Shown here piece after piece: positions 3,491 to 29,120 of a stretch of DNA of 64,000 nucleotides; positions within the stretch are counted from its first letter, which is position 1; every line of letters starts with the position of its first letter. The DNA is from Lichenicola cladoniae (GTDB lineage Bacteria > Pseudomonadota > Alphaproteobacteria > Acetobacterales > Acetobacteraceae), in the NCBI RefSeq assembly GCF_013201075.1, contig NZ_CP053708.1, positions 4,035,501 to 4,099,500 of the forward strand. Direction: 5' to 3'. A model generated the notes under the pieces. That model saw nothing but the letters and a program-made list of their open reading frames with translations. It did no database searches and had not been told where the DNA came from. The position numbers and the translations under genes were made by a program.

Positions 3491-3525
3491 CTGCATCCTT
3501 ATCGGGAAAATCGGGGTCAGGTCGG

Positions 3526-12715: not shown

Positions 12716-14206
12716 TCAAAGATAGGCCGCGACGAGAATGGTAAAGCAGGTTCCGAGCGTCAGCAGGCTGACCCGGTCGCGCACAGCGAAGATGATCGGA
12801 TCCTCGGTGACGAACCTGCGATGGGTCATCAGCATCATCCGTCCGGTCCAGTACATGATCACCGGGCACATCAGCCAGAGAACCCTCGGCTCGCGGTAGA
12901 GAACGTGCACCGCCGGCGACGAGATATACAGGGCGAGCACGGTGACCGCGTTGAAGCCGCACACGGTGGCCATGGTCGCCACGATCTGCAGGTCGCCGAT
13001 CTTGTAGTTCCGGTTGGTCGGATCCGACAGCCCGAGATCCAGGCGAACCGCAAGCTCGGCATAACGCTTGATCAGAGCGAGGGACATAAAGATGAACATC
13101 GAGAAGCCGAGCAGCCACTCCGAGAGGACGACGTCGATCGCCACGCCGCCGGCAATCACGCGGATCGAATACAGCGCGGCGAGCGTGACGACATCGACCA
13201 GCATCTTGCGCTTCAGCACGAACGAATAGGCCGTGGTCAAAGCGTAGTAGCCGCAGAGCACGGCAAAGAACGCAGGCGAGACGAACCATCCGATCGCCAT
13301 CGATGTCGCCAGCAGGACCGGCATCAGCGCCACCGCCTGGCCGAGCGGGATCGCGCCACAGGCCAGCGGTCGGAGATGCTTGGTCGTGTGGCTTCGGTCG
13401 GAGCGGAGATCGACGAGATCGTTCAGCAGGTAGACGCTCGACGCGCAGAGCGAGAACGCGACAATGCCGAGCAGGGCGTGGACAAGTGCCGTCAGCTGGA
13501 ACAGGTGCGCAGTCATCAGCGGCACCAGCAACAGGCCGTTCTTGACGTATTGATGGACGCGAAGAAGACGAAGCCATGATTTTAGGGTCGGCGTGCGCTC
13601 CGGCAGATGGACGGCGTGCGAATGCATCTTGTCGAGCGCATGCCGCGTGCGCGCCGAGGTCCTGACGGCGATCGCCGAGGCGGCAACCTGCCACACATCG
13701 AGATCGGCCTTGTCGTTACCGATATAGTCGAAGCCGTGCGCGCCGAACTTCTCGACCAGCAGGTCCGCCTTGCGACGTCCCGACAGGTTCCGCTCGCTGT
13801 CCGATCCCATCCAGCCGTCGAACAGGCCGAGATGATCCGCGACGGACTTCACCAGCTGCTCGTTGGAGGCGGATGCGAGATAGACAGGCCGGCCAGCCTG
13901 CCTCGCCTCTTCGATGATCGATATCACAGCGGGATCGTAGGGAAGGAACTCCGGATCGAAGCTGCTGATCGAGGCGAGTCTCGCCTTCAACGCAGCCTTG
14001 CCGTGGCCCAGGGCGCCGATCGCGCCGATCGCCTGCAGCGGATGCTGTCCGGCTGCATCGAAGAATGTCTCGAGCAGGAGGTCGGACTTGATGAGCGTGC
14101 CATCGAGGTCGACGACCAGCGGTGTTGCAATGACGGATACATCACGAAGTAAAACGGAAGTCGGAGCGCTGGTTACTGAGACCTCCTGGAACGGCATTGC
14201 GATCAT
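12716..14206 (-). CDS. HAD phosphatase-UbiA prenyltransferase fusion (polyprenyl phosphoribosyltransferase-like)
   Basis: This is a two-domain protein of about 496 residues. The N-terminal HAD domain (about 28-190) has all four motifs: VVDLDGT (nucleophile Asp), ASASN, RRKAD and IGNDKADLD. The C-terminal UbiA domain (about 200-496, nine or so membrane segments) has NDLVDLRSD and KHLRPLACG, the metal-pyrophosphate motif as found in decaprenyl-phosphate phosphoribosyltransferases. Known relatives transfer phosphoribose from PRPP to a polyprenyl phosphate, and a HAD phosphatase then removes the 5-phosphate. One polypeptide here could do both. A PRPP synthetase gene lies in the same locus (27536-28468). 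ATG 14206 was chosen; GTG 14236 is an alternative. It is divergent from the SMR-type gene. Confidence 0.85.
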   Translation of the reverse strand: MIAMPFQEVSVTSAPTSVLLRDVSVIATPLVVDLDGTLIKSDLLLETFFDAAGQHPLQAIGAIGALGHGKAALKARLASISSFDPEFLPYDPAVISIIEEARQAGRPVYLASASNEQLVKSVADHLGLFDGWMGSDSERNLSGRRKADLLVEKFGAHGFDYIGNDKADLDVWQVAASAIAVRTSARTRHALDKMHSHAVHLPERTPTLKSWLRLLRVHQYVKNGLLLVPLMTAHLFQLTALVHALLGIVAFSLCASSVYLLNDLVDLRSDRSHTTKHLRPLACGAIPLGQAVALMPVLLATSMAIGWFVSPAFFAVLCGYYALTTAYSFVLKRKMLVDVVTLAALYSIRVIAGGVAIDVVLSEWLLGFSMFIFMSLALIKRYAELAVRLDLGLSDPTNRNYKIGDLQIVATMATVCGFNAVTVLALYISSPAVHVLYREPRVLWLMCPVIMYWTGRMMLMTHRRFVTEDPIIFAVRDRVSLLTLGTCFTILVAAYL

Positions 14207-14314
14207 ATTGACACGCTGTTCCGACGGCTCAATCACTCATAAGGATTAACTAAATCTACGAGCAGACATCATTCTGACTTTGCAATATAGTTGGCTCTCA
14301 GGAACGAGATTGAC
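14207..14314. promoter_or_regulatory. Divergent promoter region, HAD-UbiA / SMR transporter
   Basis: A short, AT-rich gap (about 14225-14300) between back-to-back genes, which must carry both promoters. It includes AAGGATTAACTAAATC near 14241, a loose partial match to the GGATTAG half of the dyads at 27315 and 33333. I can place no -35/-10 with confidence. Confidence 0.4.
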
Positions 14315-14686
14315 ATGAAAACTACCACTTTTGGATTAATACTATTCAGCGTGACCTTGTCGGCACTGGCGCAGGTGAGCTTCAAGCTCGGCGTCTCTGG
14401 CCGGACGGGGCAAACGGTGCCGGACGGCCAATCGCTGCTGGCATCCTTTCTCGCGATGGCAACGCCGGGCGTGATCGGCGGCCTGGTTCTCTATGGGTTC
14501 GGCACGCTGCTGTGGCTGCAGGTTCTCGCACGCACCAGTCTGTCGCAGGCCTATCCGTTCGTCGGTCTCGGCTTCGTGCTGACCTCGCTGTTCGGTGTCT
14601 TCCTGTTCGGCGAGACCGTCACGCCGCTGCGCGGCAGCGGGATCCTGCTGGTCACGATGGGGATCTACGCCATCGCGCGAAGCTAA
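14315..14686 (+). CDS. SMR/EamA-type small membrane transporter (flippase candidate)
   Basis: This is a 123-residue protein with four membrane helices: the first contains LSALAQVSFKLGV, then GLVLYGFGTLLWLQVLARTSLSQAYPFVGLGFVLTS, and a last helix GILLVTMGIYAIA. It resembles the half-size EamA/SMR proteins that act as dimers. EmrE exports cations, while ArnE/ArnF flip undecaprenyl-phosphate-aminoarabinose. Being divergent from a polyprenyl-phosphoribose synthase and next to an EPS acyltransferase favours a lipid-linked-sugar flippase role over drug efflux. ATG 14315 is preferred to a TTG at 14291. Confidence 0.75.
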   Translation: MKTTTFGLILFSVTLSALAQVSFKLGVSGRTGQTVPDGQSLLASFLAMATPGVIGGLVLYGFGTLLWLQVLARTSLSQAYPFVGLGFVLTSLFGVFLFGETVTPLRGSGILLVTMGIYAIARS

Positions 14687-14759
14687 AAGGGACTACGCCG
14701 TCCACTCTCCGGTCATAGCGTCGCCTGCCCCGCACCAGTCCTGGAAATAGGCCTCTTTC

Positions 14760-15821
14760 ATGACAGCGACGAAAATGCACAGCCTCGATCTGAACGACCG
14801 CGTCGACGCGGATCCCTCCGGAGTCGCTATCCGCCCGGTCGTCGAGCCTCGGAAGATCAAGCCGAAGCCGCCCCGCAACGAAGGTATCGACGCCTTCCGA
14901 TATGTCTGTGCGGCAGTGGTGATCCTGTTCCACACGTTGCCGTCGAAGCCGCCTGTACCGGTCTGGGCTGCAGATCTTGCGACGATCTGTTTCATCGCCG
15001 TCCCGTTCTTTTTCGTCTCGAGCGGCTACTTCCTGCACGCTGCCGATCGATTCAATATCGGGCTTGTCGTCCGGCCTCTGCGTCGTCTCCTCCCGATCTA
15101 CCTGTTCTGGATGCTGGCGTACGGTCTGCTCCTGAAGCTCTTGCCGGTACATGCCTGGTCCTTTTCCGCGCGGGACCTGCTTTGGGGTGGGCCGGCCTAC
15201 CATTTATGGTTCATACCGGCACTCGCCCTGGCGCTGGCATTTGTCGGGGTCGGGATGAGCACGGTCGGGCCGAAGCTCACCGGTATCGCCTGTCTGCTGC
15301 TCGCATGCATCGCAGTGACCCGCGGCGCCTACCATGATGTGCTTGGCCTTGCCGGAACGGCGTCCACCCATGACGGGCAGCTCGCGGCGCCGCTTTACAT
15401 CTATATCGGCATGATGATCAGTCGATATCCAGTCGCCATCAGTTGGCGGTGGTGGGCTGGGCTGACTGCACTCGGCGTCACGCTGGCCTTCACGGAGAAC
15501 AGGCTGATCATCGGGGTATCGGGCACGCCCATGTTCCTGGGGCACGATGTTCTCGTCTCGATGTTTCCCCTCGGGGCGGTCGCGTTCATGCTCGCCAGAA
15601 CCATCCCGAGATCCTGGTTCATCAGTGTCCTTGCACGCCTCGGTCAGGTCAGCCTCGGCGTCTACTTCGTGCACCTGTTCATCGTCTGGCTGCTTCTGCC
15701 CTATATAGGCAACGACAGTCCCTTTCGGGTCATCCTGCTGACCTCCCTGGTAATTGCTCCTTCTACGGGCCTGAGTTTCCTGCTGCAGCGGATCCCGGGA
15801 CTTCGGCCGTTCGTACTCTAG
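14760..15821 (+). CDS. Membrane acyltransferase, acyltransferase-3 family
   Basis: This 353-residue protein has a hydrophilic N-terminal tail of about 40 residues and then roughly ten membrane segments. NEGIDAFRYVCAAVVILFHTL carries the family His, and AVPFFFVSSGYFL is the second hallmark. It probably adds acetyl or a similar group to a sugar of the EPS repeat unit. It follows the SMR-type gene by 73 bases on the same strand and is convergent with the GT87 gene ending at 15858. It is clearly distinct from the acyltransferase at 5454-6659, so the locus has two acylation activities. Confidence 0.88.
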   Translation: MTATKMHSLDLNDRVDADPSGVAIRPVVEPRKIKPKPPRNEGIDAFRYVCAAVVILFHTLPSKPPVPVWAADLATICFIAVPFFFVSSGYFLHAADRFNIGLVVRPLRRLLPIYLFWMLAYGLLLKLLPVHAWSFSARDLLWGGPAYHLWFIPALALALAFVGVGMSTVGPKLTGIACLLLACIAVTRGAYHDVLGLAGTASTHDGQLAAPLYIYIGMMISRYPVAISWRWWAGLTALGVTLAFTENRLIIGVSGTPMFLGHDVLVSMFPLGAVAFMLARTIPRSWFISVLARLGQVSLGVYFVHLFIVWLLLPYIGNDSPFRVILLTSLVIAPSTGLSFLLQRIPGLRPFVL

Positions 15822-15857
15822 AGATCTTTTCGATACAGGCGCCGGTTGTCAGCGTGT

Positions 15858-17249
15858 CTATCGCGCCGCTCGCGGTGCCGCCGGTCTCGAGATCGAGACC
15901 AGCACGCCGAGCAACAGCAACGCGCCGATGAACACATAGGATTGCAGGACGTTCAGCCAAGTGGTGCTGAACAGGTTCAGGATCTGCAGGTTGGAGCCCA
16001 CCAGACACCAGGAGGTGATCAGCATGCCGACAACGATACGGGAATGGGGCACCGAACGCTGTGACAGGATCATGCAGACGGCAACGATATAGATCGGCAG
16101 GACGATGCCGTAATGCTGTTCCCAGGCGATCGGCGACGCCATGGTGAAGCACAGGCCGCCGATCGACAGGTCGATCAGTCCCGGACGATGGCGGCGCCCG
16201 AGCAGTGCCAGCGTGAACGGAATTGCGGCGAGCAGCAGTCCGCTCAACAGCGTCGGCCAATAGACCGCAGCCAGGAACGGCGGGAAATCGTCGGCATGCC
16301 AGTGCAGGTTGTCGCCGTTCGACAGCAGCCGGTTCATCAGACCGTTGACGGACTGGTTGGCACGGAAAGACTCGCCGTGCCGGGACAGGTAGGACAGCAC
16401 GTCGAGATAATGGATATGGCTGGCAAGGCCGTATCGCGCCACGGACACCATCAGGGCCGCCGCGATCGTCGCGGCAAGGCCGGACGCGAAACGCTGCTCG
16501 CGCCAGAGCAGCGCCCAGGGGAGCAACAGCCCGAGCTGCGGCTTGATCGTGCAGGCAAGTCCGATCGCGATGCCGGCGGCGATCTTCCGGTCTTTGCTCC
16601 AGAGCAGCAAGGCGCCGGTGAACAGGCAATCGATCCAGAGCTGGATCTGCCCGATCGTGAAGCCATAGATGACCGGCCAGAACACGAAGCAGAGCGCACC
16701 GACCAGGACGGCGAGCCGGACGGGCGCCTGCTCGACGAGCGCGGAGGCCGCACCGCGCCGGACGATTTCGCGACACAGCAGGATGCTACCCGCAATGTTG
16801 AGCAGGAACACCCCGGCATTCACCCAGTTCAGCGTCGTGGTATCGATCCGGATGAGGTGACGCAGGCCGTCGATCCAGAGCAGGCTGGTCGGCGGATACT
16901 GGAATTTCTCGTGCAGATCGAAGAACAACGTCGCATACAACGTGTCGCCGTGCGGACCACGGATGAAGTCGAACGCACGGATCATCGGCGCCCAGGAATC
17001 GCTGCGCGTGCTGGGCGAGACGAATCGCACCAGGGCGGCAAGCGCCGTGACCACAGGATTGCCGGTGGAGATACCTCCGAGTGCCAGATTACCGAGCCAG
17101 GCGGCGACACCCAGCACGAGCGGCAACCCGAGCATGAGCAGCAGGGCGCGGGCGAGCGCCGCCGCGTGCCGATCCGGCCATGCGACGAGGCGGGACAAGC
17201 CCCTTGCCGGCGCGGATACCGCCAGGGCGACGGCGGGGGAGGTTTTCAT
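15858..17249 (-). CDS. GT-C membrane glycosyltransferase, GT87 (DUF2029) family
   Basis: A 463-residue polytopic membrane protein. The extracytoplasmic loop after the first helix holds FFDLHEKFQYPPTSLLW, typical of GT87-like proteins, and later helices include TIKPQLGLLLPWALL, also common in the family. It should transfer a sugar from a polyprenyl-phosphate donor in the periplasm. It is the last gene of the eight-gene EPS operon. Its ATG at 17249 sits in ATGA, overlapping the stop of the GT39-like gene, which fixes the start despite a longer open frame upstream. Confidence 0.85.
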   Translation of the reverse strand: MKTSPAVALAVSAPARGLSRLVAWPDRHAAALARALLLMLGLPLVLGVAAWLGNLALGGISTGNPVVTALAALVRFVSPSTRSDSWAPMIRAFDFIRGPHGDTLYATLFFDLHEKFQYPPTSLLWIDGLRHLIRIDTTTLNWVNAGVFLLNIAGSILLCREIVRRGAASALVEQAPVRLAVLVGALCFVFWPVIYGFTIGQIQLWIDCLFTGALLLWSKDRKIAAGIAIGLACTIKPQLGLLLPWALLWREQRFASGLAATIAAALMVSVARYGLASHIHYLDVLSYLSRHGESFRANQSVNGLMNRLLSNGDNLHWHADDFPPFLAAVYWPTLLSGLLLAAIPFTLALLGRRHRPGLIDLSIGGLCFTMASPIAWEQHYGIVLPIYIVAVCMILSQRSVPHSRIVVGMLITSWCLVGSNLQILNLFSTTWLNVLQSYVFIGALLLLGVLVSISRPAAPRAAR

Positions 17250-18838
17250 GGGGACTGCTCCGCAGCGGGGACAATGATCGCGCCGGTCTTGGCTCGAAGC
17301 ACGACGGTGCGTGACAGATCGATCGGGCCGAGTGCCCGTCTCGCGGCGTCGCGCACCAGGCGGTCGTTGGTATCCGGATCGTGGCCGGGCCAGAGCAGAT
17401 GCTCGACCCAGAGGATATCGCCGCATGTGCTGGTGGAATTGGGTGGCCGGAAGGTTGCCAGCCCAGCCGCCTGGACAGCGAAGCCGTGGCGGTCGCCGAG
17501 ATAGCGATAGGCCTGCGACAGGACCGCCGCCTCGTTCGGCAGCGTGCCCGGATACAGGAACTGGAATGCCTCGACCCTGGTGGCCGGGCATCTTGTCACC
17601 GCGCCGGCGATCAGTTCGGCCGTGGCATTCCAGCGCGGCTCACGCACCAGCTTCAACCCGGACACGGCGATGAAGGCCGCGGCATTGGCAAGCAGCAGCA
17701 CGAAGCCCCAGCGTCTGTCGAACAGGATGTCCTTCGCGAGAATGGCCAGGCCGCAGACCATCGCCGCCGAGCAGAGCACCAGATAGCGGTCGATGATGAT
17801 CGGCGTCTGGAGATTGATGCCGAGCAGGACCAGGGCGGAGCCTGCCGCGAGGCCCGCGAAGATCAGGCCGATCTGCCGATCCCTGCCGATCCCTGCATTT
17901 GGGCGGCCTGCCCTGCGTCCGAGCGTCAGGATCGCCGCAACGACGGCGATAAGGCTGCAGCCCACTCCCTTCACGAACGAGCCGGCCACGATCGTGACGG
18001 CCTCGCGCACTCCGGTCTCGATCCAGAAATGCCCGCCGGTACGCCCGAGCAGCTGGTGCAACTGGAACATCGTGGTCACGGCCAGCGGGATCGTCGACAG
18101 GAACCCGGCCACGCAGAACAGCACGGCGAGCTGCCTCTGCCGGAAGGCCAGCGCGGCCAGCATCAGCCCGGCCAGGCTGATCAGTGCCACGATCGCCGTC
18201 ACGAAGTGCAGGTTGACGAGCAGCACGCTGGTCACCAGCAGCGCACCGGCCGCCACCCGGCGTGCGGTGGTGCTCAGCTCGAGCTCTCCGCTCAGGAGCG
18301 CGTAACCCGAGCCATAGAAGACCAGCCCGAAGCAGAACTGCGCGAAATAGGACCGGTATTCGGCGAGATACGCGGTCATGAAATAGGAGGAGAAGGCCAG
18401 CACGGCGTAGGTCGCGAGGAACCGGCGCGCACGCGGCCATTCCATGGCCGCATACACGAACGCACCCAGCAGGCCGAGCAGCGGCAGCAGGTTCTGCAGT
18501 CGCCGGATCGTCACCTCCGGCCCGAGCAGACCGGCCAGCAGGCGCGAGAAGGCGGAAAACGCGGGCGGATGAACGTCGGTCAGCCAGCGCTCCTGCAGCG
18601 CCTGCTGCCACGGTATCGTCGGGTCGGTGGCCCAGAGGGTCCAGAACTCGTCCAGCCACGGTCCGCGCGTCAGCGCAGCGGCGACGCCGACTGCAATGGA
18701 CGCGACCACGAGGACGAGGGTCGCGACGATGGCCCAGGCGGGAGGCCCGGCCAGGACGCTCGAACGCGAAGCATTCGACTCTGTCACCGACACTTCGGAG
18801 TTACGCCTCAGGCGCTCGGTCAGGATCTGGTCAGACAT
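17246..18838 (-). CDS. GT39/ArnT-like membrane glycosyltransferase
   Basis: This protein of about 530 residues has some eleven membrane helices. The first extracytoplasmic loop contains RGPWLDEFWTLWATD, where Asp-Glu is the catalytic acidic motif of GT-C enzymes of the PMT/ArnT type. The C-terminal 120 residues form a soluble domain. It should transfer a sugar from a polyprenyl-phosphate carrier to the EPS or another surface acceptor. The start at 18838 overlaps the flippase stop by eight bases. The stop overlaps the next gene (ATGA). Confidence 0.85.
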   Translation of the reverse strand: MSDQILTERLRRNSEVSVTESNASRSSVLAGPPAWAIVATLVLVVASIAVGVAAALTRGPWLDEFWTLWATDPTIPWQQALQERWLTDVHPPAFSAFSRLLAGLLGPEVTIRRLQNLLPLLGLLGAFVYAAMEWPRARRFLATYAVLAFSSYFMTAYLAEYRSYFAQFCFGLVFYGSGYALLSGELELSTTARRVAAGALLVTSVLLVNLHFVTAIVALISLAGLMLAALAFRQRQLAVLFCVAGFLSTIPLAVTTMFQLHQLLGRTGGHFWIETGVREAVTIVAGSFVKGVGCSLIAVVAAILTLGRRAGRPNAGIGRDRQIGLIFAGLAAGSALVLLGINLQTPIIIDRYLVLCSAAMVCGLAILAKDILFDRRWGFVLLLANAAAFIAVSGLKLVREPRWNATAELIAGAVTRCPATRVEAFQFLYPGTLPNEAAVLSQAYRYLGDRHGFAVQAAGLATFRPPNSTSTCGDILWVEHLLWPGHDPDTNDRLVRDAARRALGPIDLSRTVVLRAKTGAIIVPAAEQSP

Positions 18839-20147
18839 TGCGCCGGCACTCCCGTGCGAAAAGGAACGCAGCCGCGGCAAGGCCCGCGATCGCTCCGGTC
18901 AGTACTGCGGCTGCAGCACCGGGCGCGCCGGCACGGGGGATCAGCGCGAGGGCGGCGATCCCGACGCCGACGCTGCCGACCATGTGCGGCAGATAGGCAT
19001 CGCGAAAAATGCCGCTGGCCTTCATCGCGCTGGTCAGCATGCCCTCGATGCCGTTGAGCGCGTAGCTCAGCAGGAACACCGGCATCAGCCAGGCGCCGGC
19101 ATCGAACTTGCCGCGAAACACCAGGTGCATGACCGGACCAGCCACGAACCCGGCGAGCACCACGATCGGCAACGCCGCGGCGGCGTAGAACAAGGCGCGC
19201 TGCAGCACGGTCCGGCGCAGCGCGCGCGTACTACCCCGGCCGCGGCGACCGAAATCGACAATCCAGGTCGCCATCAGGGCGCTGTTCAGCTGCACCACCG
19301 GCGCGTTGAGCGTGACCACGGCGCGGGTCCCGGCGACGCTGGCCAGCCCCTGGAACAGGGCCAGCACCACATAGATCCCGTCCGAGCGTACCCAGGAAAA
19401 CCCGGCGGATGCGCTGCCCCAGGGCACGAACGGCGACGTCGCACGGACCAACTCCGCCATCCGGTACGGGCGACCCGGTACGGTCCTCGACAGCAGGATC
19501 GCGCAGATGATCGTCGCGCAGACCAGGCTCCAGCCGCTCATCACCACCCAGAGGGCGAACCAGCTGATCGCGCCGGCGAAATACAACACCCAGGCGGTCG
19601 CCGTTGCCGCAAAAAGATAGAGCAATCCGACCAGCGCCGAGATCGCCGCGGTCAGGAAGGCCAGGCACAGGCGACGCGCGGTCGCCAGGGTCAGCAGCGC
19701 GCAGCCGCAGCCGATCGCGGTGGCGACGCCGAGGCCGAGATCGGGCCGGCCGAGCAGCGTGCCGGTCAGCCAGGCGAGCGCGCCCAGGACCGATGCAACG
19801 GCCAGGAGGATGAGATGCGCCCGGACCAGGGTGGTGATGTAGGACCGGAGCCGATCCGGTGCGATCCGTGCGGATTCGACCAGCAGCGGCTCGACGACGA
19901 CATACCAGTGCAGGACGCTGAGCAGGATGAAGCCGGAGAAGGTGATGCCGAAGCGACCGTACTCGACCGGCGTGAGCCAGTGCGCGAACAGCACGTTGAG
20001 AACCAGGTTGGTCAGGGCGAACACTGCCTGGTCGGCCATCAGCCAGCCATACTGGCGCGTCGCCTTCAGCCACAGCTTGGCCGCCGGCCGCTCGGGCGCG
20101 ACGATGGACTGCATGGACACGAACTCCGACAGGTCTTTCATCGGCAT
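18831..20147 (-). CDS. Wzx-type polysaccharide flippase (MOP superfamily)
   Basis: A 438-residue protein of twelve to fourteen hydrophobic segments of the polysaccharide-transporter type (FALTNLVLNVLFAHWLTPVEYGRFGI near the N-terminus is characteristic). It would flip the completed undecaprenyl-diphosphate repeat unit to the periplasm for polymerisation. Its first ATG overlaps the stop of the glycoside hydrolase gene (TGATG), and a second in-frame ATG follows two codons later. It lies within the overlapping operon, flanked by the hydrolase and the GT39-like gene. Confidence 0.88.
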   Translation of the reverse strand: MPMKDLSEFVSMQSIVAPERPAAKLWLKATRQYGWLMADQAVFALTNLVLNVLFAHWLTPVEYGRFGITFSGFILLSVLHWYVVVEPLLVESARIAPDRLRSYITTLVRAHLILLAVASVLGALAWLTGTLLGRPDLGLGVATAIGCGCALLTLATARRLCLAFLTAAISALVGLLYLFAATATAWVLYFAGAISWFALWVVMSGWSLVCATIICAILLSRTVPGRPYRMAELVRATSPFVPWGSASAGFSWVRSDGIYVVLALFQGLASVAGTRAVVTLNAPVVQLNSALMATWIVDFGRRGRGSTRALRRTVLQRALFYAAAALPIVVLAGFVAGPVMHLVFRGKFDAGAWLMPVFLLSYALNGIEGMLTSAMKASGIFRDAYLPHMVGSVGVGIAALALIPRAGAPGAAAAVLTGAIAGLAAAAFLFARECRRNV

Positions 20148-21337
20148 CAGGACCGGCAGAGGCGAAGCGATGTCGCAGCCGAGTTCGAAGCACCACAGCC
20201 CTCGACGAGATCGTGGTCGATCCCCCAGCCGCCTTTATATTCCCAGACGGTCCAGCCCATCCCGGCACTTTCCAGCTTGGCGCGCACGATGCCCAGCCAT
20301 TTCGCACGTGCATCGCGCGGAGTGGCGTTGTTGAACACGCCGAACTCGGTCGAGACCACGACCGCGCTGTTGGTCCGGCTCCATGCGGCGGCGAGGTCGA
20401 TCTCCCCGGTCATCAGCCCGGCATCGTGGAAATTGTCGCCATACCAGGCAAGTTGGGACCGGAGCGAAGGGTCCGTGCCGGCCGCAACCGCGGCGACGTT
20501 ACCTGCCTTCGCCGGAAACTCCAGCGACCGGATGGTCCCGTAGCTCGGCACCGACCAGGACGCCGCCTGATGCGTGAAGATCATCGGCGTATAGAAATGG
20601 AACGTGTAGGCAACGTTACGGTCGGCAAGTGGCGGAAGGGCAGACAGCGCCGCCGCAGTGCTCCAGGGGCTCGCCGTCGCAATTACCGTGTTTGCCGGCG
20701 CGACCGAGCGGATTGCCTGCAGAATATCCGCCTGCATCGCCGCCCACTGTACGCCGTCGGGCAGCTTCGGCTCGTTCAGCATTTCGAAGAAAACATGGTC
20801 CGGCGAGGCGGTCGCGTAGCGCGCAGCGAGCTGGCGCCAGACGAGCTTGAGCCGCGTGGCGATCTGCTCGGTCGTCCCGCCTTCGGGCTGCAGGTTCTCG
20901 AACGGATGCAGGTCGATGATCACCCCGAGGTCGGCGGCGACCGCGGCACAGACGGTACTGTCGAGGCGCCTCAGCACCGCAGCCTGCCAAGCCGGGGGCA
21001 CCGGGGCGAACACCAGCGGGGAGACAGGGACGCGGATATGCCTCACCCCGCTGCGCCGGAGACGCGCGAACACGCCCGGCAGATCCGGCTCGCTCCCATC
21101 GACGAACAGGTCGGTCATGTTGACGCCCCGGGAGAGACGGTCGCGGCGGGACTTCGGAATGCTGTCGAGCGCCGGCCGGACAGCGGTGGGCGTGTCGGCG
21201 AGGCAGGTCAGCGGCGCCGGGATGGTATTCGCCGTGGCAGCCCGGCCCGGTTCGGCCGAAGCGGCAAGACCGAGGACCAGCGTGGCGACGACCGAGGCAA
21301 ACGCCATTGCGCGTAACCGGACGCACGCTGAACTCAC
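20147..21337 (-). CDS. Secreted glycoside hydrolase family 5 (endoglucanase-like)
   Basis: This protein of about 396 residues has a signal peptide (AFASVVATLVLGLAASAEPGRA). The GH5 barrel carries the general acid/base in FFEMLNEP (Glu189) and the nucleophile in VVVSTEFGV (Glu331); IIDLHPFEN and FHFYTPMIFTHQ are further family marks. GH5 enzymes cleave beta-1,4-linked glucans or mannans. Located between a glycosyltransferase and the flippase in the EPS operon, it probably trims or releases the polymer in the periplasm, as the cellulase in cellulose operons does. GTG 21337 overlaps the upstream stop (GTGA); ATG 21307 is a shorter alternative that keeps the signal. Confidence 0.9.
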   Translation of the reverse strand: MSSACVRLRAMAFASVVATLVLGLAASAEPGRAATANTIPAPLTCLADTPTAVRPALDSIPKSRRDRLSRGVNMTDLFVDGSEPDLPGVFARLRRSGVRHIRVPVSPLVFAPVPPAWQAAVLRRLDSTVCAAVAADLGVIIDLHPFENLQPEGGTTEQIATRLKLVWRQLAARYATASPDHVFFEMLNEPKLPDGVQWAAMQADILQAIRSVAPANTVIATASPWSTAAALSALPPLADRNVAYTFHFYTPMIFTHQAASWSVPSYGTIRSLEFPAKAGNVAAVAAGTDPSLRSQLAWYGDNFHDAGLMTGEIDLAAAWSRTNSAVVVSTEFGVFNNATPRDARAKWLGIVRAKLESAGMGWTVWEYKGGWGIDHDLVEGCGASNSAATSLRLCRS

Positions 21338-22467
21338 TCGGCTAGGCTCTTGGCGACGACAGGTTCGGCCGCGTCGCCGAGGGCCGGATCGTAGCCCGGC
21401 AACACCGGCTGTTCCGAGCAGAACGTTTCGTAGTCGCTGGAGGTGCGGAGCAGCCCCGGCCTGGTCAGGTCCACGCTCGACCGGTAGCGGCGGCTTTCGG
21501 GATGGGCAAAGCACAGGTTCGGATCGCCCTTGAGCGCCGACGCATAGCGGCCGTATTCGGAACCGCCATCGAAATGCTGGCCCTGTTCCAGAGCCTTGAT
21601 GACCCGCCCATGGAAATCGGAAAAGAACTTGTAGTGCAGCAACACGCCGGTGATCGGCGCAAGCCGCAGCGGGGTCGTCTTGTGGTTGCTGATCCAGCGC
21701 CGGCCGGGCGCCCCGAGAATGAGCGGCATCTTGGACAGCAGCGGCGGCGACGTGGTTCCGCCGAGCCAGCTTTGCATCGCCAGGGCGCGCCCGATCCGGC
21801 TGTCGCGCAGCTTCTTCAGGCCACGCGGCACGGCATAGCCGTAGGCCCCGGACCTGGCGAACCGCGGATAGAACTGCCGGAGGCGGGGACCGCCGACGAC
21901 CTCGGAGGGCGGAAACGGCGCTGCGCCGAACGGCCGCTTCAACCTGGGGCGGAACCGGTAATCGACATCGAACAGCGGGCACACGTCGTTGAAGCGTTCG
22001 CCCCGGAGATAGACGGCCTCCGACACGGGAACAGGCGAATACATGTCCAGCATGAAGGCGAAGACGCCTTCATAGCCGTTGCGTTCGAGATAGTCGCACA
22101 GCTTCGGAAGCGGCAGCTTCTCCACGTTCGGATAGACCAGCAGCTCGTCCGCATCCACGAACAGGCACCAATGGCCGGGGCCGTAGGCTTCCAGCAGCGT
22201 GTTGATCCAGTCCATTCCGAAGTTGGCGCCGCCGAAATCCGCGCTGGTCGTGAAGACCGAGCAGTCCGGCTGGACACGCAGGTAGTCGGCGCTGGAATCG
22301 GTCGAGCGGTCATCGATGATGAAGAACCACTGCACGCCGAGCGAGCGGTAGTACGACAGCAGGTAGGGCAGACGATCGGCCTCGTCCCGCACGCACAGGA
22401 AGGCGCGGCATTGCCGCCCCTGCCCGGGAGGCAGCCGATTTGTCAGGGCGCGTAGACCGGTCAGCAT
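21334..22467 (-). CDS. Glycosyltransferase family 2 (GT2_4-like)
   Basis: A 377-residue soluble protein. FLCVRDEADRLPYLLSYYRSLGVQWFFIIDDRSTD is the typical opening of the GT-A fold in this subgroup, and CLFVDADELLV supplies the DxD motif that binds nucleotide-sugar and metal. A long C-terminal half includes LLHYKFFSDFHGRV. It acts in the cytoplasm, adding one sugar to the growing lipid-linked unit; donor and linkage are not evident. The start ATG 22467 overlaps the polymerase stop (TGATG); a GTG one codon earlier is possible. Confidence 0.87.
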   Translation of the reverse strand: MLTGLRALTNRLPPGQGRQCRAFLCVRDEADRLPYLLSYYRSLGVQWFFIIDDRSTDSSADYLRVQPDCSVFTTSADFGGANFGMDWINTLLEAYGPGHWCLFVDADELLVYPNVEKLPLPKLCDYLERNGYEGVFAFMLDMYSPVPVSEAVYLRGERFNDVCPLFDVDYRFRPRLKRPFGAAPFPPSEVVGGPRLRQFYPRFARSGAYGYAVPRGLKKLRDSRIGRALAMQSWLGGTTSPPLLSKMPLILGAPGRRWISNHKTTPLRLAPITGVLLHYKFFSDFHGRVIKALEQGQHFDGGSEYGRYASALKGDPNLCFAHPESRRYRSSVDLTRPGLLRTSSDYETFCSEQPVLPGYDPALGDAAEPVVAKSLAE

Positions 22468-24089
22468 CACGTCATCCTATCGAGCGCAGGTTCGTCGCCA
22501 CCGAGGTTGCTGATGACGATGCCGCCGAACAGCGTCAGCAGACCCAGCGCGTAGGGTGAATAGGCCTCTTCCTGGAAGAAGCCATTGGCCAGGATGACGG
22601 CGATCGCGATGAACAGCGTATCGGTCGGCCTGGTCATGATGCCGCGACCACCACCGGCCTGCAGTTTCCTTTTGAACCCGGCGAAGATCGTGATGAAGAT
22701 CGGCAGGTAGACGACCACCACCGCGACGCCCATCTGGTAGAGCAACACGCCGACGGCACTCTCGAGCGCGAAATCGACGCCGAGCTTCTGCCAGGTCGCC
22801 CAGTCCAGCCCTCCGACTCCCAATGCCGAGAGGTTTCCGCCGACGCCGATGCCATGACCTTGCGGCGTCGACATGAAACCATGCAGGCCGCCCAGGAAGC
22901 CGATGACATGGAAATCGGAGTTGGCGATGCCGGTGCGGATGCCGAACCCGACATAGGCGACCAGCAGCACGACGGATGCCAGCAGGACCATGAGCCGGTT
23001 GCGCGTGACGATCCACAACGTCGCGAGACAGATGGTTGCCAGCAGCATCAGGAGCGGGCCCTTGATGCCCGCCATCACCAGCAGGGCGATCGCGAGGAAG
23101 ACGATCTCGAACCGGCGAAGAGTCATCGCCACGATCGCGGTGACGCCGACCACATAGGCGTAGCTCACCGCATGCATGTTCGGTCCGAAGCTGCGGATCG
23201 AGAGATGATCACCGGATCCGCCGGTAATGTTGAACCAGGTGACGATACGCGCCCGCACCAGTTCGTCGACGCTGCGCATGATGGGGCCGGTTCCGTCGGG
23301 CAACGCGTTCTTGAAGTTCCAGAAATCGATCGCGCCGATCGCCTGGTAGTACTCGACGGGAACGACCAGCTCCGCAAGATCGACGGCGACGCCGAACACG
23401 ATCGAGACCAGGAAGATGATCGCGAACGTCCGGTAGCTCCACCGGCGGCCAAGGTCGAGCCCGACCAGGAGTGCCAGCAGCATCGCCGAACTGTTGCGCA
23501 GGTAGGTGATGGCCGAACCCGGGGACGATTTCAGCATTCCGTAGGCGGTGTAGGCGAGCATCACGACGATCGCGATGCAGATCCAGCGTGTCAGGATGGT
23601 GGCGGTGCTGCCGGCGCCGCCCGGTCGTGCCATGCGGATGAAGGCCACGGCCGACAGGCAGACGACTGCCGCGAACGCCAGCCCCTGAACCGTCTGGAAG
23701 GCGGCATGGTCGAGGCCGAACCGGGAGAATACGGCGAGGAACCAGTTCTGGTAGAGCAGCACCTGCAGGAAGACCGTCGCCCCGGCGAGCGGGCGTTTCG
23801 CGAACAGCACCAGCAGCCCGGTCAGGCCGAAAATCAGCGCCACCGAGCCGAACGCGCAGACGAGCAGCATCTGCATGCCGAGCAGCACGAACGAAGCGAG
23901 CTGCCACATCACCGCATACCGGAGCGCCTGCCCGGTGGACATCTCCACGACCCGGCCGGTCGAGACCCATTGCGTCGAGACCGGGTAGCCGGCCCAGGCC
24001 TCGGCCATGCGCCTGGTTTCCGCGCGGCTGGTCGTCGGGCGCGGGGCCGGCCTTATCAAGGCTTCCCGAGGGAGCGTGCGAAGGCTCAT
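22467..24089 (-). CDS. EPS polymerase candidate (Wzy-like membrane protein)
   Basis: A 540-residue protein with a hydrophilic N-terminus of about 55 residues, about a dozen membrane segments and a large periplasmic loop (around residues 245-305: FWNFKNALPDGTGPIMRSVDE...SFGPNMHAVSYAY). This layout is that of O-antigen/EPS polymerases or ligases, which have little sequence conservation. Position, between copolymerase and GT2 in an operon with a flippase and lacking another polymerase candidate, supports Wzy. The start overlaps the upstream stop as ATGA. Confidence 0.7.
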   Translation of the reverse strand: MSLRTLPREALIRPAPRPTTSRAETRRMAEAWAGYPVSTQWVSTGRVVEMSTGQALRYAVMWQLASFVLLGMQMLLVCAFGSVALIFGLTGLLVLFAKRPLAGATVFLQVLLYQNWFLAVFSRFGLDHAAFQTVQGLAFAAVVCLSAVAFIRMARPGGAGSTATILTRWICIAIVVMLAYTAYGMLKSSPGSAITYLRNSSAMLLALLVGLDLGRRWSYRTFAIIFLVSIVFGVAVDLAELVVPVEYYQAIGAIDFWNFKNALPDGTGPIMRSVDELVRARIVTWFNITGGSGDHLSIRSFGPNMHAVSYAYVVGVTAIVAMTLRRFEIVFLAIALLVMAGIKGPLLMLLATICLATLWIVTRNRLMVLLASVVLLVAYVGFGIRTGIANSDFHVIGFLGGLHGFMSTPQGHGIGVGGNLSALGVGGLDWATWQKLGVDFALESAVGVLLYQMGVAVVVVYLPIFITIFAGFKRKLQAGGGRGIMTRPTDTLFIAIAVILANGFFQEEAYSPYALGLLTLFGGIVISNLGGDEPALDRMT

Positions 24090-26299
24090 CGCGCGGCGAG
24101 TCCAAGGAGCTGATGATACTTCCGGCCATGCCGCAGCATCGCCTGGGACGTGGCATCGCCATATTTGGCATGCTTGGCCAGGTCGACCTGCGAGACCACC
24201 ACCTGCAGGCCACGTGCCCGGATATCCGAGAGTTGCCGGAGTGCCGCCTTGATCGCCGACGCAGGAGTGTGACCCCAGCGGACCAGCAACAAGGTGGCTT
24301 CCACACTGGACGCCAGCAGCCCGGCATCGGAACTGACCAGCATCGGTGGGGAGTCGAGGATCACCAGGTCGTACTCCGCCTCGGCCTGCGCCATGAAGCG
24401 GTCGAAGGGCATCTGCGTCAGCAACCGGATCGGCGCCCTGTCCGCACGTCCGGCGGTAATGATGTCGAGGTTTGGAAGATGCTTGATTGCCGCATCGTTC
24501 ATCGTGACATCGCCGCGGATGATGTCTGCGAGCCCGGCGGCGCCGGCGTGCTGGCCGACCGTCGTGGTGAGCGAGGACCGGTACAGGTCGGCATCGACGA
24601 TCAACACGCGCTGGCCGCGTTCGGCGGCGGCCATTCCCAGCAGCCGCGAGCAGGTCGTCTTGCCTTCACGCGGCACCGCGGACGTCACCAGAACGCTGCG
24701 CGGAAGCTTGCCGTCCTGCGACCCGGCGAGACGCGCCCAGAGCACTGCCGCAGCATCCTGCAGCGTCTCCTGCTGCCGTTGCTCGGAGTGCCGCCGCAGA
24801 AAGGGGACGATGCCGAGCGGGCTGAAGCCGAGCAGCCGCTCGAAGCTCTCCGGTGTCCTCAGGCCTTTCGCCAGCATCTCACGCAGGGCGACCGCCGCCG
24901 AGGCCATGATGAGCCCGAGCACCAGTCCGGCCAGCACGATCAGGCTGCGATTGGGGGATGACGGACGGTCCGTGGGAACAGCCCAGGACAGCACCCGCAC
25001 ATTGATGCGGGGGAAGTTGAACTGGGGATCGGTCTCTTTGGAGCGCGTCAGGAAGGTCTGGTAGAAGGCGCTGTCCACCGCGGCCTCGCGCTCCTTGGCC
25101 TGCAGCCCGGTCTGGAGCGTGTCGGCCTGCTCGACGTGCAGACGGGCCTCGGCCATGCGTGCCGCCGTGGCGGCCCGGCTTGCCGACGCCATTTCATTGG
25201 CGCTCTGCAGGCTATGGATCAGCCGGCTCGTCTCGGCGGCGATCTGCGATCGGATGTCGCGGATCCGGGCATCGATCCCGATCTCGATCGGATGCGCATC
25301 GCCCAGCTGCGAACTGAGTTCGGCATTCTCCACGGTGAGCCGCGCTTCCTGCGCCCGAAGCTGCTGGATCACCGGGGAGTTCAGGACGGTGGAAACCTGT
25401 TGCGGTCCGGCACGGCTCGCATCGGCCAGCGCGACCGCGGCATCGGTCTGCCGGGCTTGGGCCGCGGTGAGCTGGGTGCTGACTTCGCCCACTTCCTGCT
25501 CGACGAGCAGCGAGTCTCGGCTGCGAAGCAACCCATGCTGGGTCTTGTACAACCCGACCGCCGCCGATGACGCGTCGGCCTTGTTCTTGAGCACGAGGAG
25601 CCGCTGGTCGATCCAGCTGTTTGCCAGGCGGGTCTGCTCGTCACGGATCCGCCCATGCTCGGCCATGTAGAGGTCGGCCATCGTGTTGACGATCGCAGCG
25701 GCGGTACGAGGATCGCCCGAGGTGAAGGCGATGCGGATCGCACGAGCCCGGCCGAGCGGGCCGACCACGAGGTGATTCTTGATGGACGCAACCACGTCGT
25801 TCATCGCCCGGTGGCCCGGTGCGACGGGACGCGCAGCTGCCCAGGAGGCAGGAAGCCTGTAGCCGAACAGGGCGGTCGGCATCGCCTCGAGCAGGCCGTG
25901 GCGAAGGGCCGGATTGAACTCAGGATTATCGACCAGCTTCAGCCGGTTGGCGACCTGCTCGATGAACTCGCGCGAATACAGTATCTCGAGCTCGGTGGCG
26001 ATCGCTTCCGCGTCCGCTCTGGTGTCGGTCAGCATCTCGTTCAGCGTGACCGCCTCCGGCTGGCTGGTCTCGATCACGACGGTGCTGGAGGATGTATATT
26101 GTCCCGGCAGATACTTCGCGACGACGACGCTGCTAGCCGTAACCAGCAGCAGCGTGGCCGCGAACACGTACTTGTGCCGTGCCACGACGCGATAGATGTC
26201 GCGCGGGATGCTGGTCTCGGTTGCCAGAAGCGGTGACTCCGCACGCCACGAAAAATCCGAGAGCGGTATGGAGTTCGGCGCGAGCATCTTGGATGGCAT
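24086..26299 (-). CDS. GumC-like polysaccharide copolymerase fused to a CapB-type ATPase
   Basis: The 737-residue protein begins with a Wzz domain (first membrane helix near 35-58, long coiled-coil periplasmic part, second helix near 440-465). It ends with a cytoplasmic P-loop ATPase: Walker A VPREGKTT, Walker A' VLIVDADLYRS and Walker B YDLVILDSPP. It controls chain length and bridges to the outer-membrane GumB-like protein. Unlike classical BY-kinases it has no clustered C-terminal tyrosines (the tail ends KYHQLLGLAAR), so tyrosine autophosphorylation may be reduced or absent. It is coupled upstream (TGATG) to the WecG-like gene and downstream (ATGA) to the polymerase. Confidence 0.9.
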   Translation of the reverse strand: MPSKMLAPNSIPLSDFSWRAESPLLATETSIPRDIYRVVARHKYVFAATLLLVTASSVVVAKYLPGQYTSSSTVVIETSQPEAVTLNEMLTDTRADAEAIATELEILYSREFIEQVANRLKLVDNPEFNPALRHGLLEAMPTALFGYRLPASWAAARPVAPGHRAMNDVVASIKNHLVVGPLGRARAIRIAFTSGDPRTAAAIVNTMADLYMAEHGRIRDEQTRLANSWIDQRLLVLKNKADASSAAVGLYKTQHGLLRSRDSLLVEQEVGEVSTQLTAAQARQTDAAVALADASRAGPQQVSTVLNSPVIQQLRAQEARLTVENAELSSQLGDAHPIEIGIDARIRDIRSQIAAETSRLIHSLQSANEMASASRAATAARMAEARLHVEQADTLQTGLQAKEREAAVDSAFYQTFLTRSKETDPQFNFPRINVRVLSWAVPTDRPSSPNRSLIVLAGLVLGLIMASAAVALREMLAKGLRTPESFERLLGFSPLGIVPFLRRHSEQRQQETLQDAAAVLWARLAGSQDGKLPRSVLVTSAVPREGKTTCSRLLGMAAAERGQRVLIVDADLYRSSLTTTVGQHAGAAGLADIIRGDVTMNDAAIKHLPNLDIITAGRADRAPIRLLTQMPFDRFMAQAEAEYDLVILDSPPMLVSSDAGLLASSVEATLLLVRWGHTPASAIKAALRQLSDIRARGLQVVVSQVDLAKHAKYGDATSQAMLRHGRKYHQLLGLAAR

Positions 26300-27177
26300 C
26301 AGGGTATTGCTCCGGTTCCTATTGCGTCCCTCGATGGCAACTCGATTGACTGGGATGGCCTGATCTCCGTGAGGCGATCGGACCTTCTACGCAACGACAT
26401 TTGACAGGCCGCGAGGACGACAGCCACGACAAAGGGTGGGTAGTCCAGAAGGTAACGGCGCCACAGGCGCCGAGGCTCCTTCGCAAGCCGGTAGGCCCAG
26501 CGAAGGTTCAGCCTGTCGATCCAGGCCGGATAATAGTCCATTCCGCCGTTCAGCTGGTCGAGATATCCGCCACAGGTAAAGCCGCAGCCCGTCCAACCCG
26601 CGCCCTTGAGAGCGAGCAGCATCTTCTCCTGGTGATCCGACCCCATCCCGCAGATGACGATGTCCGGATCGAGCGCGACCAGCTTCCGCGTCCTGACATC
26701 GGTGTCGCCGTAGCCGTGGAATGCACCGACGAACCGGAGCATTGGAAACGCGTCGGCGAGCCGCTGCATCGCCTGTTCCGCCGAACCCGGCTCTCCGCCG
26801 ACGAGCGCTACGGTATAGCCGTACTGCTCGGCCAGACCGAGCAGCTTCGGAGCGAGGGACGTCGTGTCGAAGCTTATCCTGGCCGCCGGGATATGGTGGA
26901 TCAGCCGGACGGCAAGGCTCAGCCCTGATCCGTCGGGAAGGACCGCATCGAACGCGGCAAGCCGGTCGGCATAACCTGGCCGGCTGGTTGCGACTGCGCA
27001 CGAGGACGGATTGACGAACGTGACCAGATACGGCGTTCGCGAAGCGAGATTGCGCGCGACGGCATCGAGAACGCCTGTTGTATCAAAGGTCGCGTCGACC
27101 GGTAAACCGAGGGTCCGCGTTCGACGCAGGCCGGACACGGAACCCGATGCGGTCTGCGTTGTTATGATGTCCAACAT
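26299..27177 (-). CDS. WecG/TagA/CpsF-family glycosyltransferase (GT26)
   Basis: A 292-residue protein of the GT26 fold. Marks include TFVNPSSCAVA, DAVLPDGSGLSLAVRL (family DG motif), ALVGGEPGSAEQAM, ICGMGSDHQEKML and the C-terminal RLAKEPRRLWRRYLLDYP. Relatives are WecG, TagA and GumM. They add the next sugar to an undecaprenyl-diphosphate-linked unit at the inner face of the membrane. The start ATG 27177 is fixed by AGGGA seven bases upstream; a longer in-frame extension to 27255 has no such site. It is the first gene of the eight-gene operon. Confidence 0.9.
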   Translation of the reverse strand: MLDIITTQTASGSVSGLRRTRTLGLPVDATFDTTGVLDAVARNLASRTPYLVTFVNPSSCAVATSRPGYADRLAAFDAVLPDGSGLSLAVRLIHHIPAARISFDTTSLAPKLLGLAEQYGYTVALVGGEPGSAEQAMQRLADAFPMLRFVGAFHGYGDTDVRTRKLVALDPDIVICGMGSDHQEKMLLALKGAGWTGCGFTCGGYLDQLNGGMDYYPAWIDRLNLRWAYRLAKEPRRLWRRYLLDYPPFVVAVVLAACQMSLRRRSDRLTEIRPSQSIELPSRDAIGTGAIP

Positions 27178-27535
27178 CGTCGTCCCTGGCTTGAAAAGAA
27201 CCGGCGTCCGCTCATCGCGATGGACGCACAGGCCGACTGCACAGAGACCACACATCAGTTCGGAATCGTCGGGCGATAAAGGCGCATAATCCTATGCACT
27301 TTATGTCGCGTGGCATCCCTATGGATTAGGCCACACGCGCTTCCTGACGGCTGCGCGCGCCGGAACCATGGTCCGTCTATTATTTTCCGGACATCGATAC
27401 CGAATCACGATTGTCATTTCGATGAGTCAACTGCTACGGAATGCGTCGATATGACCCCATGTAAAGCGGCGTCTTCTTCGTCGCGCCGGATGGCGTAGCA
27501 AAACGCATCCGGCCAGGAACAGGACACCTCGATCC
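27178..27535. promoter_or_regulatory. Divergent promoter region with two dyads (EPS operon / prs)
   Basis: A gap of 358 bases between the EPS operon (minus) and the PRPP synthetase gene (plus). It contains GCATA-ATCC-TATGC at 27284-27297 and a larger dyad at 27310-27334, whose core (27315-27329) matches one at 33333-33347. No coding frame here is convincing. The location fits binding sites for a regulator that controls both transcription units. Confidence 0.5.
27315..27329. promoter_or_regulatory. Candidate operator: ATCC-CTAT-GGATTAG dyad
   Basis: Inner arms ATCC/GGAT are separated by four bases; outer arms GTGGC (27310-27314) and GCCAC (27330-27334) extend the dyad. The core differs from the one at 33333-33347 at only two of 15 positions. 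Both lie in divergent gaps of the EPS locus, so they may bind the LuxR-type regulator encoded at 29158-30183. Confidence 0.4.
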
Positions 27536-28468
27536 ATGAAGATCGTCGCAGGCAACGGAAATATCCCTCTTGCCCAGGCCGTGGCTTCCGCGCTGGAGCT
27601 TCCACTGACCAAGGCGATCGTCCGGCGGTTCGCCGACATGGAGATATTCGTCGAGATCCAGGAAAACGTCCGTGGCCAGGATGTCTTCGTGATCCAGAGC
27701 ACGTCCTATCCGGCGAACGACAACCTGATGGAACTGCTGATCATGCTGGACGCGCTCAGGCGTGGCTCGGCGCGCAGGATCACGGCGGTCATTCCGTATT
27801 TCGGATATGCCAGGCAGGACAGGAAGTCGTCGCCGCGCAGTCCGATCAGCGCGAAGCTGGTCGCGAACCTGCTGACCGAGGCAGGCGCAAACCGGATCCT
27901 GACGCTGGACCTGCATGCCAGCCAGATCCAGGGCTTCTTCGATATCCCGGTCGACAACCTCTATGCGGCGCCGCTGTTTGCCGAAGACGCCAAGAAACGC
28001 TTTCTCACGCGCGAGATGATGATCGTGTCGCCCGATGTCGGCGGTGTGATTCGGGCCCGGGAGCTCGCGCGACGACTGGAAACCGATCTCGCGATCATCG
28101 ACAAGCGTCGGGAGCGGGCGGGAGTGTCCGAGGTGATGAACGTCATCGGCGACGTTTACGGCCGGGACTGCATCCTGGTCGACGATATCTGCGACAGCGG
28201 CGGAACACTCTGCAACGCGGCGGCGGCATTGCAACGCAACGGTGCAAGATCCATCAATGCCTATATCACCCACGGCGTCCTGTCCGCGGGTGCTGTCGAA
28301 CGGGTGGCGTCCTCGGTGTTCAGCATGATGACCATCACCGACAGCATCGTCGCGACGGAAGCCACCCGGACGGCGTCGAACATCAGGCAGGCAACGATCG
28401 CGCCACTGCTTGCAGAGGCCATGCGTCGCATCGCCGACGAGAGCTCGGTCAGTTCGCTGTTCGACTAG
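27536..28468 (+). CDS. prs: Ribose-phosphate pyrophosphokinase (PRPP synthetase)
   Basis: A 310-residue cytoplasmic enzyme that makes PRPP from ribose 5-phosphate and ATP. Marks are [10 protein letters not shown] near the N-terminus, [18 protein letters not shown] (ATP-binding flexible loop), [12 protein letters not shown] with catalytic His, and the PRPP loop DDICDSGGT, in which the usual DTGGT reads DSGGT. PRPP normally feeds nucleotides, His and Trp, but it is also the donor for polyprenyl phosphoribosyltransferases such as the one suggested at 12716-14206. It lies divergent from the EPS operon, an unusual setting. ATG 27536 follows an AGGA some distance upstream. Confidence 0.95.
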
Positions 28469-28514: not shown

Positions 28515-29120
28515 ATGGATTTCGCTGCAGCAGGATCCTCGTCGGTGCTCGAGCGTCTCTACGCGCGAACCCTTGCTCTCGCAGCCACGAGACGAGCGCC
28601 TCTGTGGCTGGCGTTGATCGCGGTGGCCGAGGGCAGCTTCTTTCCGGTCCCGCCGGACGTCCTGCTGATCCCGATGGTGCTGGCGCGACGGGATCTGGCC
28701 TGGCGCCTTGCAGGATTATGCACGCTGGCCAGCCTGTGCGGCGGAACCATCGGCTGGCTCATCGGCGCGGAGGCAATCCGACTGGCGGCTGGCGTCATCC
28801 ATTTCTATCATGCGGAGGCCGCACTCGCGCTCTACGTGCACCGCTTTGCCCAGTACGGGTTCAGCGTCATTCTCCTGAAGGGTCTCACTCCAATACCCTA
28901 CAAGATCATCGCGATTGCTGCCGGGGCTGCCCACTACAGCCTGCCCCTGTTCCTGCTGGCCAGCCTGATCACCCGTGGGTTCCGCTTCTTCCTGCTTGCC
29001 GGGCTGCTCCATCGCTTCGGCGCACCGATCCAGACATTCATCGAGCGCCGGCTGACGATCCTCGCACTCGGGTTCGCAATCCTGATCGTGGCCGGCATCC
29101 TGGTAGCTGTGCGTGTGTAG
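28515..29120 (+). CDS. YqaA/DedA-like VTT-domain membrane protein
   Basis: A 201-residue protein with about five hydrophobic segments and the family signature GSFFPVPPDVLLIPMVLARR followed by LKGLTPIPYKIIAIAAG and LASLITRGFRFFLLAGLL. VTT/DedA proteins move lipids across membranes; two DedA subgroups were recently shown to recycle undecaprenyl phosphate. Lying 46 bases after prs in an EPS locus, it could recycle the carrier lipid or flip a lipid-linked sugar. ATG 28515 has AAGGA upstream and is preferred over a longer frame from 28410. It is convergent with the LuxR-type regulator. Confidence 0.82.
   Translation: MDFAAAGSSSVLERLYARTLALAATRRAPLWLALIAVAEGSFFPVPPDVLLIPMVLARRDLAWRLAGLCTLASLCGGTIGWLIGAEAIRLAAGVIHFYHAEAALALYVHRFAQYGFSVILLKGLTPIPYKIIAIAAGAAHYSLPLFLLASLITRGFRFFLLAGLLHRFGAPIQTFIERRLTILALGFAILIVAGILVAVRV

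Follow-up and report, generated by a model that had tools for sequence, protein, structure and literature searches.

An exopolysaccharide locus of Lichenicola cladoniae with a probable polyprenyl-phosphate-ribose pathway and a second PRPP synthetase gene

We analysed a 64,000-nucleotide stretch of the genome of Lichenicola cladoniae (Acetobacteraceae; NCBI RefSeq assembly GCF_013201075.1, contig NZ_CP053708.1, positions 4,035,501 to 4,099,500 of the forward strand), hereafter the window, with coordinates counted from its first letter. According to open reading frame (ORF) and Pfam/NCBIfam scans, an exopolysaccharide (EPS) locus occupies the window from about 2.9 to 32–33 kb. A sequence-only reading had proposed that this locus contains a polyprenyl-phosphoribose pathway together with a gene for phosphoribosyl pyrophosphate (PRPP) synthetase, prs, and all the genes that it named are present in the window. 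Those at the centre of the argument are the following:

11279..12688, minus strand: GT87a glycosyltransferase (Pfam GT87, 76.5 bits, cut-off 25)
12716..14236, minus strand: HAD phosphatase-UbiA fusion (NF006088, 623 bits, cut-off 351)
14291..14686, plus strand: candidate flippase, a small SMR/ArnF-like membrane protein whose gene diverges from that of HAD-UbiA (likely ATG at 14315)
15858..17258 as scanned, minus strand: GT87b glycosyltransferase (Pfam GT87, 67.8 bits, cut-off 25)
27536..28468, plus strand: class I PRPP synthetase (prs), second genome copy (three Pfam domains above cut-off; NF002320, 481 bits, cut-off 297)
28515..29120, plus strand: VTT/DedA-like protein, a weak match, downstream of prs (Pfam, 30.3 bits, cut-off 33.9)

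The HAD-UbiA fusion had been placed at 12716–14206. The gene is real, but its frame extends to a GTG start at 14236, and 14206 corresponds to an ATG ten codons in. In the NCBIfam ranking, NF006088 was followed by models of decaprenyl-phosphate phosphoribosyltransferases (145, 140, and 123 bits); the general prenyltransferase model scored 55 bits, and models of the heme, chlorophyll, geranylgeranyl, and 4-hydroxybenzoate type only 20–28 bits. The nearest PDB sequence was the Rv3806c-type decaprenyl-phosphate phosphoribosyltransferase 8j8j (E 4.8e-29). An AlphaFold model of the fusion, built from 32 sequences, reached a mean predicted local distance difference test (pLDDT) score of 89, with residues 1–35 disordered. 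When this model was searched with Foldseek, 8j8j and 8j8k ranked at the top (E 9e-11 and 7e-10; target TM-score 0.80–0.81), followed by archaeal UbiA enzymes (E ~1e-6; 0.65–0.74), and the HAD domain matched phosphoserine-phosphatase-like HAD proteins. The UbiA domain might instead be an ordinary quinone, heme, or lipid prenyltransferase unrelated to pentose transfer, and the fusion does carry a Pfam UbiA match (63 bits). However, the genome has two further UbiA genes that score 211 and 185 bits on this model and are better candidates for such roles, and we regard this alternative as highly improbable. In agreement with the sequence-only reading, the profile, PDB, and fold evidence indicates that the UbiA domain of the fusion is of the phosphoribosyltransferase type and not of the quinone/heme type.

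The catalytic residues are also in place. The HAD motifs had been described as intact, and we found the nucleophile in a DLDGT motif at residue 43. Across 32 aligned sequences, D43 and D45 were invariant, as were N272, D273, D276, D280, R391, and E394; in the UbiA domain, the N, D, D, and D residues stand at spacing 0, 1, 4, and 8, and the R and E three apart. The residues replaced by Kelly et al (2024; PMC11127046) in ORF15 of Citrobacter have counterparts in the window fusion with the same spacing.

The core pathway is indeed already in print. Kelly et al (PMC11127046) assayed a homologous HAD-UbiA fusion and showed that it carries out both reactions, converting PRPP to polyprenyl-phosphate-ribofuranose, and that a GT-C enzyme uses the product; the small flippase is a prediction, an epimerase alters the pentose, and the strategy is called widely used. 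The Citrobacter youngae O1/O2 system described there resembles the window in having a GT-C partner and a HAD domain N-terminally fused to a UbiA-type phosphoribosyltransferase in which the catalytic residues agree. Its small predicted flippase would correspond to the weakly assigned SMR-like protein of the window, and the locus of the ribose serotype O1 likewise has no epimerase gene. In contrast, C. youngae makes an ABC-exported O antigen with a GT136 enzyme, whereas the window has an EPS-type locus (Wzc-type protein, sugar transferase), a GT87 neighbour, and a second prs; neither "prs" nor "PRPP synth" occurs in the main text of that paper. With the mycobacterial decaprenylphosphoryl-arabinose pathway (Rv3806c) the window shares the UbiA-type phosphoribosyltransferase, which is the nearest solved structure, and, going by the account in PMC11127046, the donor PRPP and final enzymes of the GT-C type, but the mycobacterial phosphatase is a separate, unrelated enzyme, whereas that of the window is the fused HAD domain. 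In Azorhizobium, resemblance to mycobacterial proteins has led to the proposal that noeC, noeH, and noeO supply a D-arabinose precursor (PMC2443382); the noeCHOP system, likened here by its description in that paper, decorates a Nod factor (arabinosylation), whereas the window system would decorate an EPS. We consider it very likely that the locus codes for a polyprenyl-phosphate-ribose pathway of a known type that serves EPS, with GT87 enzymes as the likely transferases.

GT87a, whose gene follows that of HAD-UbiA after 27 bp, is the best candidate pentofuranosyltransferase and GT87b the second. We scanned 299 genomes of the family, counting matches with an E-value of 1e-30 or better as GT87a homologues and of 1e-70 or better as HAD-UbiA. 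A HAD-UbiA gene was found in 12 of the 13 GT87a-bearing genomes and in 67 of the 286 others (Fisher p 6e-7, a test in which the 13 genomes are not independent because they belong to only six genera); G209 is the GT87a genome without a match. The two genes lie at most 5.4 kb apart in seven of the 12 (G000, G129, G185, G205, G240, G260, and G271), on separate contigs in G081, G150, G194, and G273, and far apart on one contig in G087. A homologue of GT87b directly follows HAD-UbiA in Methylobacterium soli (L080). Three GT-C enzymes had been proposed: those at 11279 and 15858 are GT87 members, but for the ORF at 17246 this label finds no profile support in Pfam or NCBIfam.

For the divergent small ORF, which had been proposed as an SMR-type flippase, the best NCBIfam match was ArnF (47 bits, cut-off 99) and the Pfam EamA match reached 27.3 bits (cut-off 28.2). 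The ORF is present as claimed, but both matches are below cut-off, and its assignment as an SMR-type flippase is plausible but weak. SMR-like genes were found in seven of 80 other HAD-UbiA loci (five strong and two weak matches to a home-made profile of which several of the five were seeds), and further SMR homologues in L215, L221, and L231. These sub-threshold scores weigh against the proposed pathway, as do two results for GT87a: its best PDB match was 9dm5, a "Mannosyltransferase" (E 8e-6), and its structure prediction (pLDDT 45) was not used, so that its donor is left unconstrained.

Which pentose the pathway would deliver depends on the epimerases. We examined 80 HAD-UbiA loci from named genomes, the top-scoring ones among at least 585; both full 10-kb flanks were available for 49, of which 47 were handled by a simple gene caller (L115 and L129 were dropped). 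In the next two same-strand places downstream of HAD-UbiA, these 47 loci hold 74 ORFs, of which 26 matched FAD_binding_4 and 15 short-chain dehydrogenases, called DprE1-type and DprE2-type, respectively, by their position; the same 74 include eight GtrA, five Epimerase, one GT87, and one Multi_Drug_Res match. The frequency of the first two families suggests that arabinose-type HAD-UbiA loci are common in this family, and it would favour a product of arabinofuranose or xylofuranose in L. cladoniae too, with the epimerases encoded elsewhere in the genome. We consider this unlikely. The absence of DprE1 had been noted for the window, and a genome-wide query gave no convincing DprE1 either: the best match to a DprE1-like query was 28% identical over 168 residues (E 6e-8), as compared to 52% in G157 and 43% in G205 over most of the length. 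An ALO profile found nothing in the genome, a weak test in that the profile does not match the DprE1-like query either. ALO, which matched in 3 of 14 control genomes, was discarded as a marker of DprE1 because the DprE1-like gene L077:11782-13188 matches FAD_binding_4 only. Among 22 ORFs scanned in the locus, no oxidoreductase, epimerase, or dehydrogenase family was found, although several ORFs match nothing and the scan did not extend to a genome-wide search for DprE2 or a one-gene, xylose-type short-chain dehydrogenase/reductase (SDR) epimerase. Because there is no convincing DprE1, arabinose would not be expected, unlike in the mycobacterial pathway, and D-ribofuranose would be the likeliest product.

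G205, a genome of another genus, has two HAD-UbiA loci, L233 (C32) with a DprE1-like gene and L216 (C25) with an extra prs. Arabinose-type and ribose-type systems possibly exist side by side in this organism.

L. cladoniae has a second class I prs gene elsewhere in its genome. The sequence-only reading would have been refuted by a sole prs in a conserved position, and this did not apply. The other copy is 92–94% identical to those of four congeners, whereas the window copy is only 76–78% identical to them and sits elsewhere in the family tree, on a long branch. It keeps full-length domains and what we take, from the motif names as we know them, to be the active-site motifs. EPS genes flank it on both sides. 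The sequence-only reading had singled out a dedicated PRPP supply beside an EPS operon as the unusual part; in view of PMC11127046, as far as its main text goes, the pathway itself is not new and the prs is, but the link is rare. We consider the extra prs to be the novel element, best explained, though not exclusively so, as a dedicated source of PRPP.

A second, linked prs recurs in one other genus. In the family scan, two prs matches at E 1e-90 were found in five of the 299 genomes (G000, G077, G205, G208, and G281); 20 of the 299 show no match, so that incomplete assemblies may hide further second copies. The extra prs of G205 lies 7 kb from HAD-UbiA on the same contig stretch, which also holds homologues of GT87a (43–44% identity to the window), GT87b (38%), the SMR-like protein (53%), and HAD-UbiA (36–38%), together with a LuxR-type gene, which is downstream of prs as in the window, a GT4-type gene, an epimerase-family gene, and a Wzc-type protein. 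The extra copy of G077 is on a contig other than that of HAD-UbiA; the G208 copy, on a 4-kb contig, and the two prs pieces of G281, which stop at contig ends, could not be placed. Among the 79 HAD-UbiA genomes, an extra prs is thus nearby in two, on another contig in G077, and unplaceable in G281. The co-occurrence of prs with HAD-UbiA, which the sequence-only reading had put forward for testing, recurs beside a HAD-UbiA/SMR/GT87 set in one other genus but is rare (2 of 79 genomes).

These data also allow the pathway to be real and the prs a passenger, either a duplicated or acquired copy in a variable EPS locus or one that meets a nucleotide-sugar or general nucleotide demand. We regard this as possible but rather doubtful, and several observations weigh in its favour and against a dedicated supply. 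The window prs is 13.3 kb from HAD-UbiA and on the opposite strand, where it apparently forms a transcription unit of its own with the VTT gene. An integrase-core gene and the LuxR gene stand between prs and GT87a in G205, the former downstream of prs. No prs was found in the 80 other HAD-UbiA loci, 49 of them with both 10-kb flanks, although such flanks would miss a 13-kb spacing, and extra copies occur in other settings too, such as among F420-type genes in G077. HAD-UbiA is present in four of the five two-prs genomes and 75 of the 294 others (p 0.018), but the excess shrinks to p 0.056 without the window's genome and to p 0.17 if G281 is also removed. In a scan of 385 genomes of the class, HAD-UbiA-type matches occurred in 32 (28 above the curated cut-off), and of three genomes with two prs at E 1e-100 only that of the window has HAD-UbiA; no prs reached this threshold in 80 of the 385. 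Finally, in an approximately unbiased (AU) test, grouping the window prs with its own genus was not rejected (p 0.11).

Against a passenger prs stands, besides the retained active-site motifs, its position in two genera, both with an extra prs within 15 kb of HAD-UbiA: apart from the window copy, two extra copies can be placed, and one of them lies that close (p ~0.011, or 0.022 when the two unplaceable copies count as unlinked), a test whose limit was set after seeing the data and which rests on one genome. We find this positional argument stronger than the co-occurrence statistic. The extra copies may have one origin or two: the best prs tree separates them and places that of G205 inside its genus (support 98/93), but a single clade of the two was not rejected by the AU test (p 0.32).

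Beyond these genomes, prs was found in 87 plasmid records and HAD-UbiA in 82, with no accession shared among the 60 of each that were listed, and none of four plasmid prs neighbourhoods (H1, H8, H14, and H16) has an annotated HAD-UbiA; three look like ordinary housekeeping settings and one is beside a phosphoribosyltransferase gene. In the literature searched, from which supplements and most subscription papers were absent, no prs was reported in any pentofuranose locus. The prs link is thus rare and seen in two genera, and we infer its function.

Other prs copies showed further settings. In G077:C73 (L217), the extra prs (9463–10395) is surrounded by F420-type genes, and close to it is a NAMPT-like gene, which we take to be a consumer of PRPP. 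The second prs of G208 (G208:C87, L218) clusters with prs genes from other families of the class and is 82% identical to that of G039, which suggests horizontal transfer or contamination. In G127, G183, and G225 (genus g124), a single prs was found in each, 83% identical to that of the window and at the head of the identity listing, and about 37 kb from HAD-UbiA. On a Pseudohalocynthiibacter plasmid (L247), prs comes right after a phosphoribosyltransferase-family gene, with many transposases around.

The remaining features of the EPS locus are as follows:

2912..3529, minus strand: polysaccharide export protein (Poly_export; Pfam), one edge of the locus
between the export protein and the next acyltransferase in locus order: beta-barrel gene
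5454..6659, minus strand: acyltransferase (44% identical to that of the G205 locus)
6656..11275, minus strand: cadherin-like/GDSL/RTX protein of 1539 aa (58% identity to a protein of the same length in the G205 locus)
14760..15821, plus strand: acyltransferase (Acyl_transf_3; Pfam)
17246..18880, minus strand: putative membrane protein (no Pfam or NCBIfam family match)
20147–21316: GH5 cellulase-family gene
minus strand, listed after GH5 and before the Wzc-type gene: GT2-type enzyme
22467..24089, minus strand: ORF without a Pfam match, labelled Wzy polymerase solely for its position
24086..26299, minus strand: Wzc-type protein (Wzz, GNVR, and AAA_31 domains; domain scan)
26299..27255, minus strand: WecG/TagA/CpsF family glycosyltransferase (NCBIfam scan)
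29158..30342, minus strand: LuxR-type regulator (domain scan)
30640..32157, minus strand: initiating bacterial sugar transferase, presumably GumD-like (domain scan)
32166–33176: GT1-type match below cut-off (21.7 bits, cut-off 26.4)

The open frame of GT87b extends to 17591, overlapping the next gene there. More than one minus-strand ORF between GT87b and the GH5 gene matches no family. The cadherin-like/GDSL/RTX protein, of equal length in the window (6656–11275) and in the EPS locus of G205 (L216:7933-12552), is possibly a secreted EPS-acting esterase or a matrix protein. A VTT/DedA-like gene had been predicted after prs, and an ORF is present there, but its match stays below cut-off. We set aside a role of this gene in undecaprenyl-phosphate recycling, a function that PMC10127716 limits to one of three DedA subfamilies. 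None of the seven ORFs scanned beyond 33.2 kb was EPS-like; they comprise phosphatase/nuclease-type, kynureninase-like, glucose/sorbosone dehydrogenase, HipA-like (40634–41902), and LysR-type genes and two unmatched ORFs.

In the mechanism that we propose, the locus's own PRPP synthetase would raise PRPP, on the assumption that this prs feeds this pathway, and the UbiA domain would use PRPP to place phosphoribose on polyprenyl phosphate. Once the 5-phosphate had been stripped by the fused HAD domain, the SMR-like protein may flip the resulting polyprenyl-phosphate-ribofuranose, and a GT87 enzyme, GT87a in the first place and GT87b in the second, would transfer ribose from this presumed donor to the polymer as presumed acceptor; the identity of the sugar is likewise one that we infer. 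What we observed is the gene content, the families to which the key domains belong, the presence of the catalytic residues, a second copy of prs, and a gene set that recurs in one other genus. On balance, the locus probably makes an EPS bearing an extracytoplasmically attached pentofuranose, with D-ribofuranose as the likeliest sugar, and has its own PRPP supply. More tentatively, some EPS loci of Acetobacteraceae type may have become self-sufficient for PRPP by recruiting an extra prs, perhaps twice, as the G205 copy nests among the prs genes of its own genus; the PRPP would fuel GT87 ribofuranosylation, so that decoration spares the PRPP used in nucleotide synthesis.

If this is true, the recently defined pentofuranose pathway would extend to EPS loci of this family, and GT87 would be a further transferase family for polyprenyl-phosphate-pentofuranose. 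It would also mean that precursor supply, in the form of PRPP, can be part of a polysaccharide locus, and an extra prs beside HAD-UbiA in a genome with no DprE1 would serve as a marker that predicts a ribose-bearing EPS.

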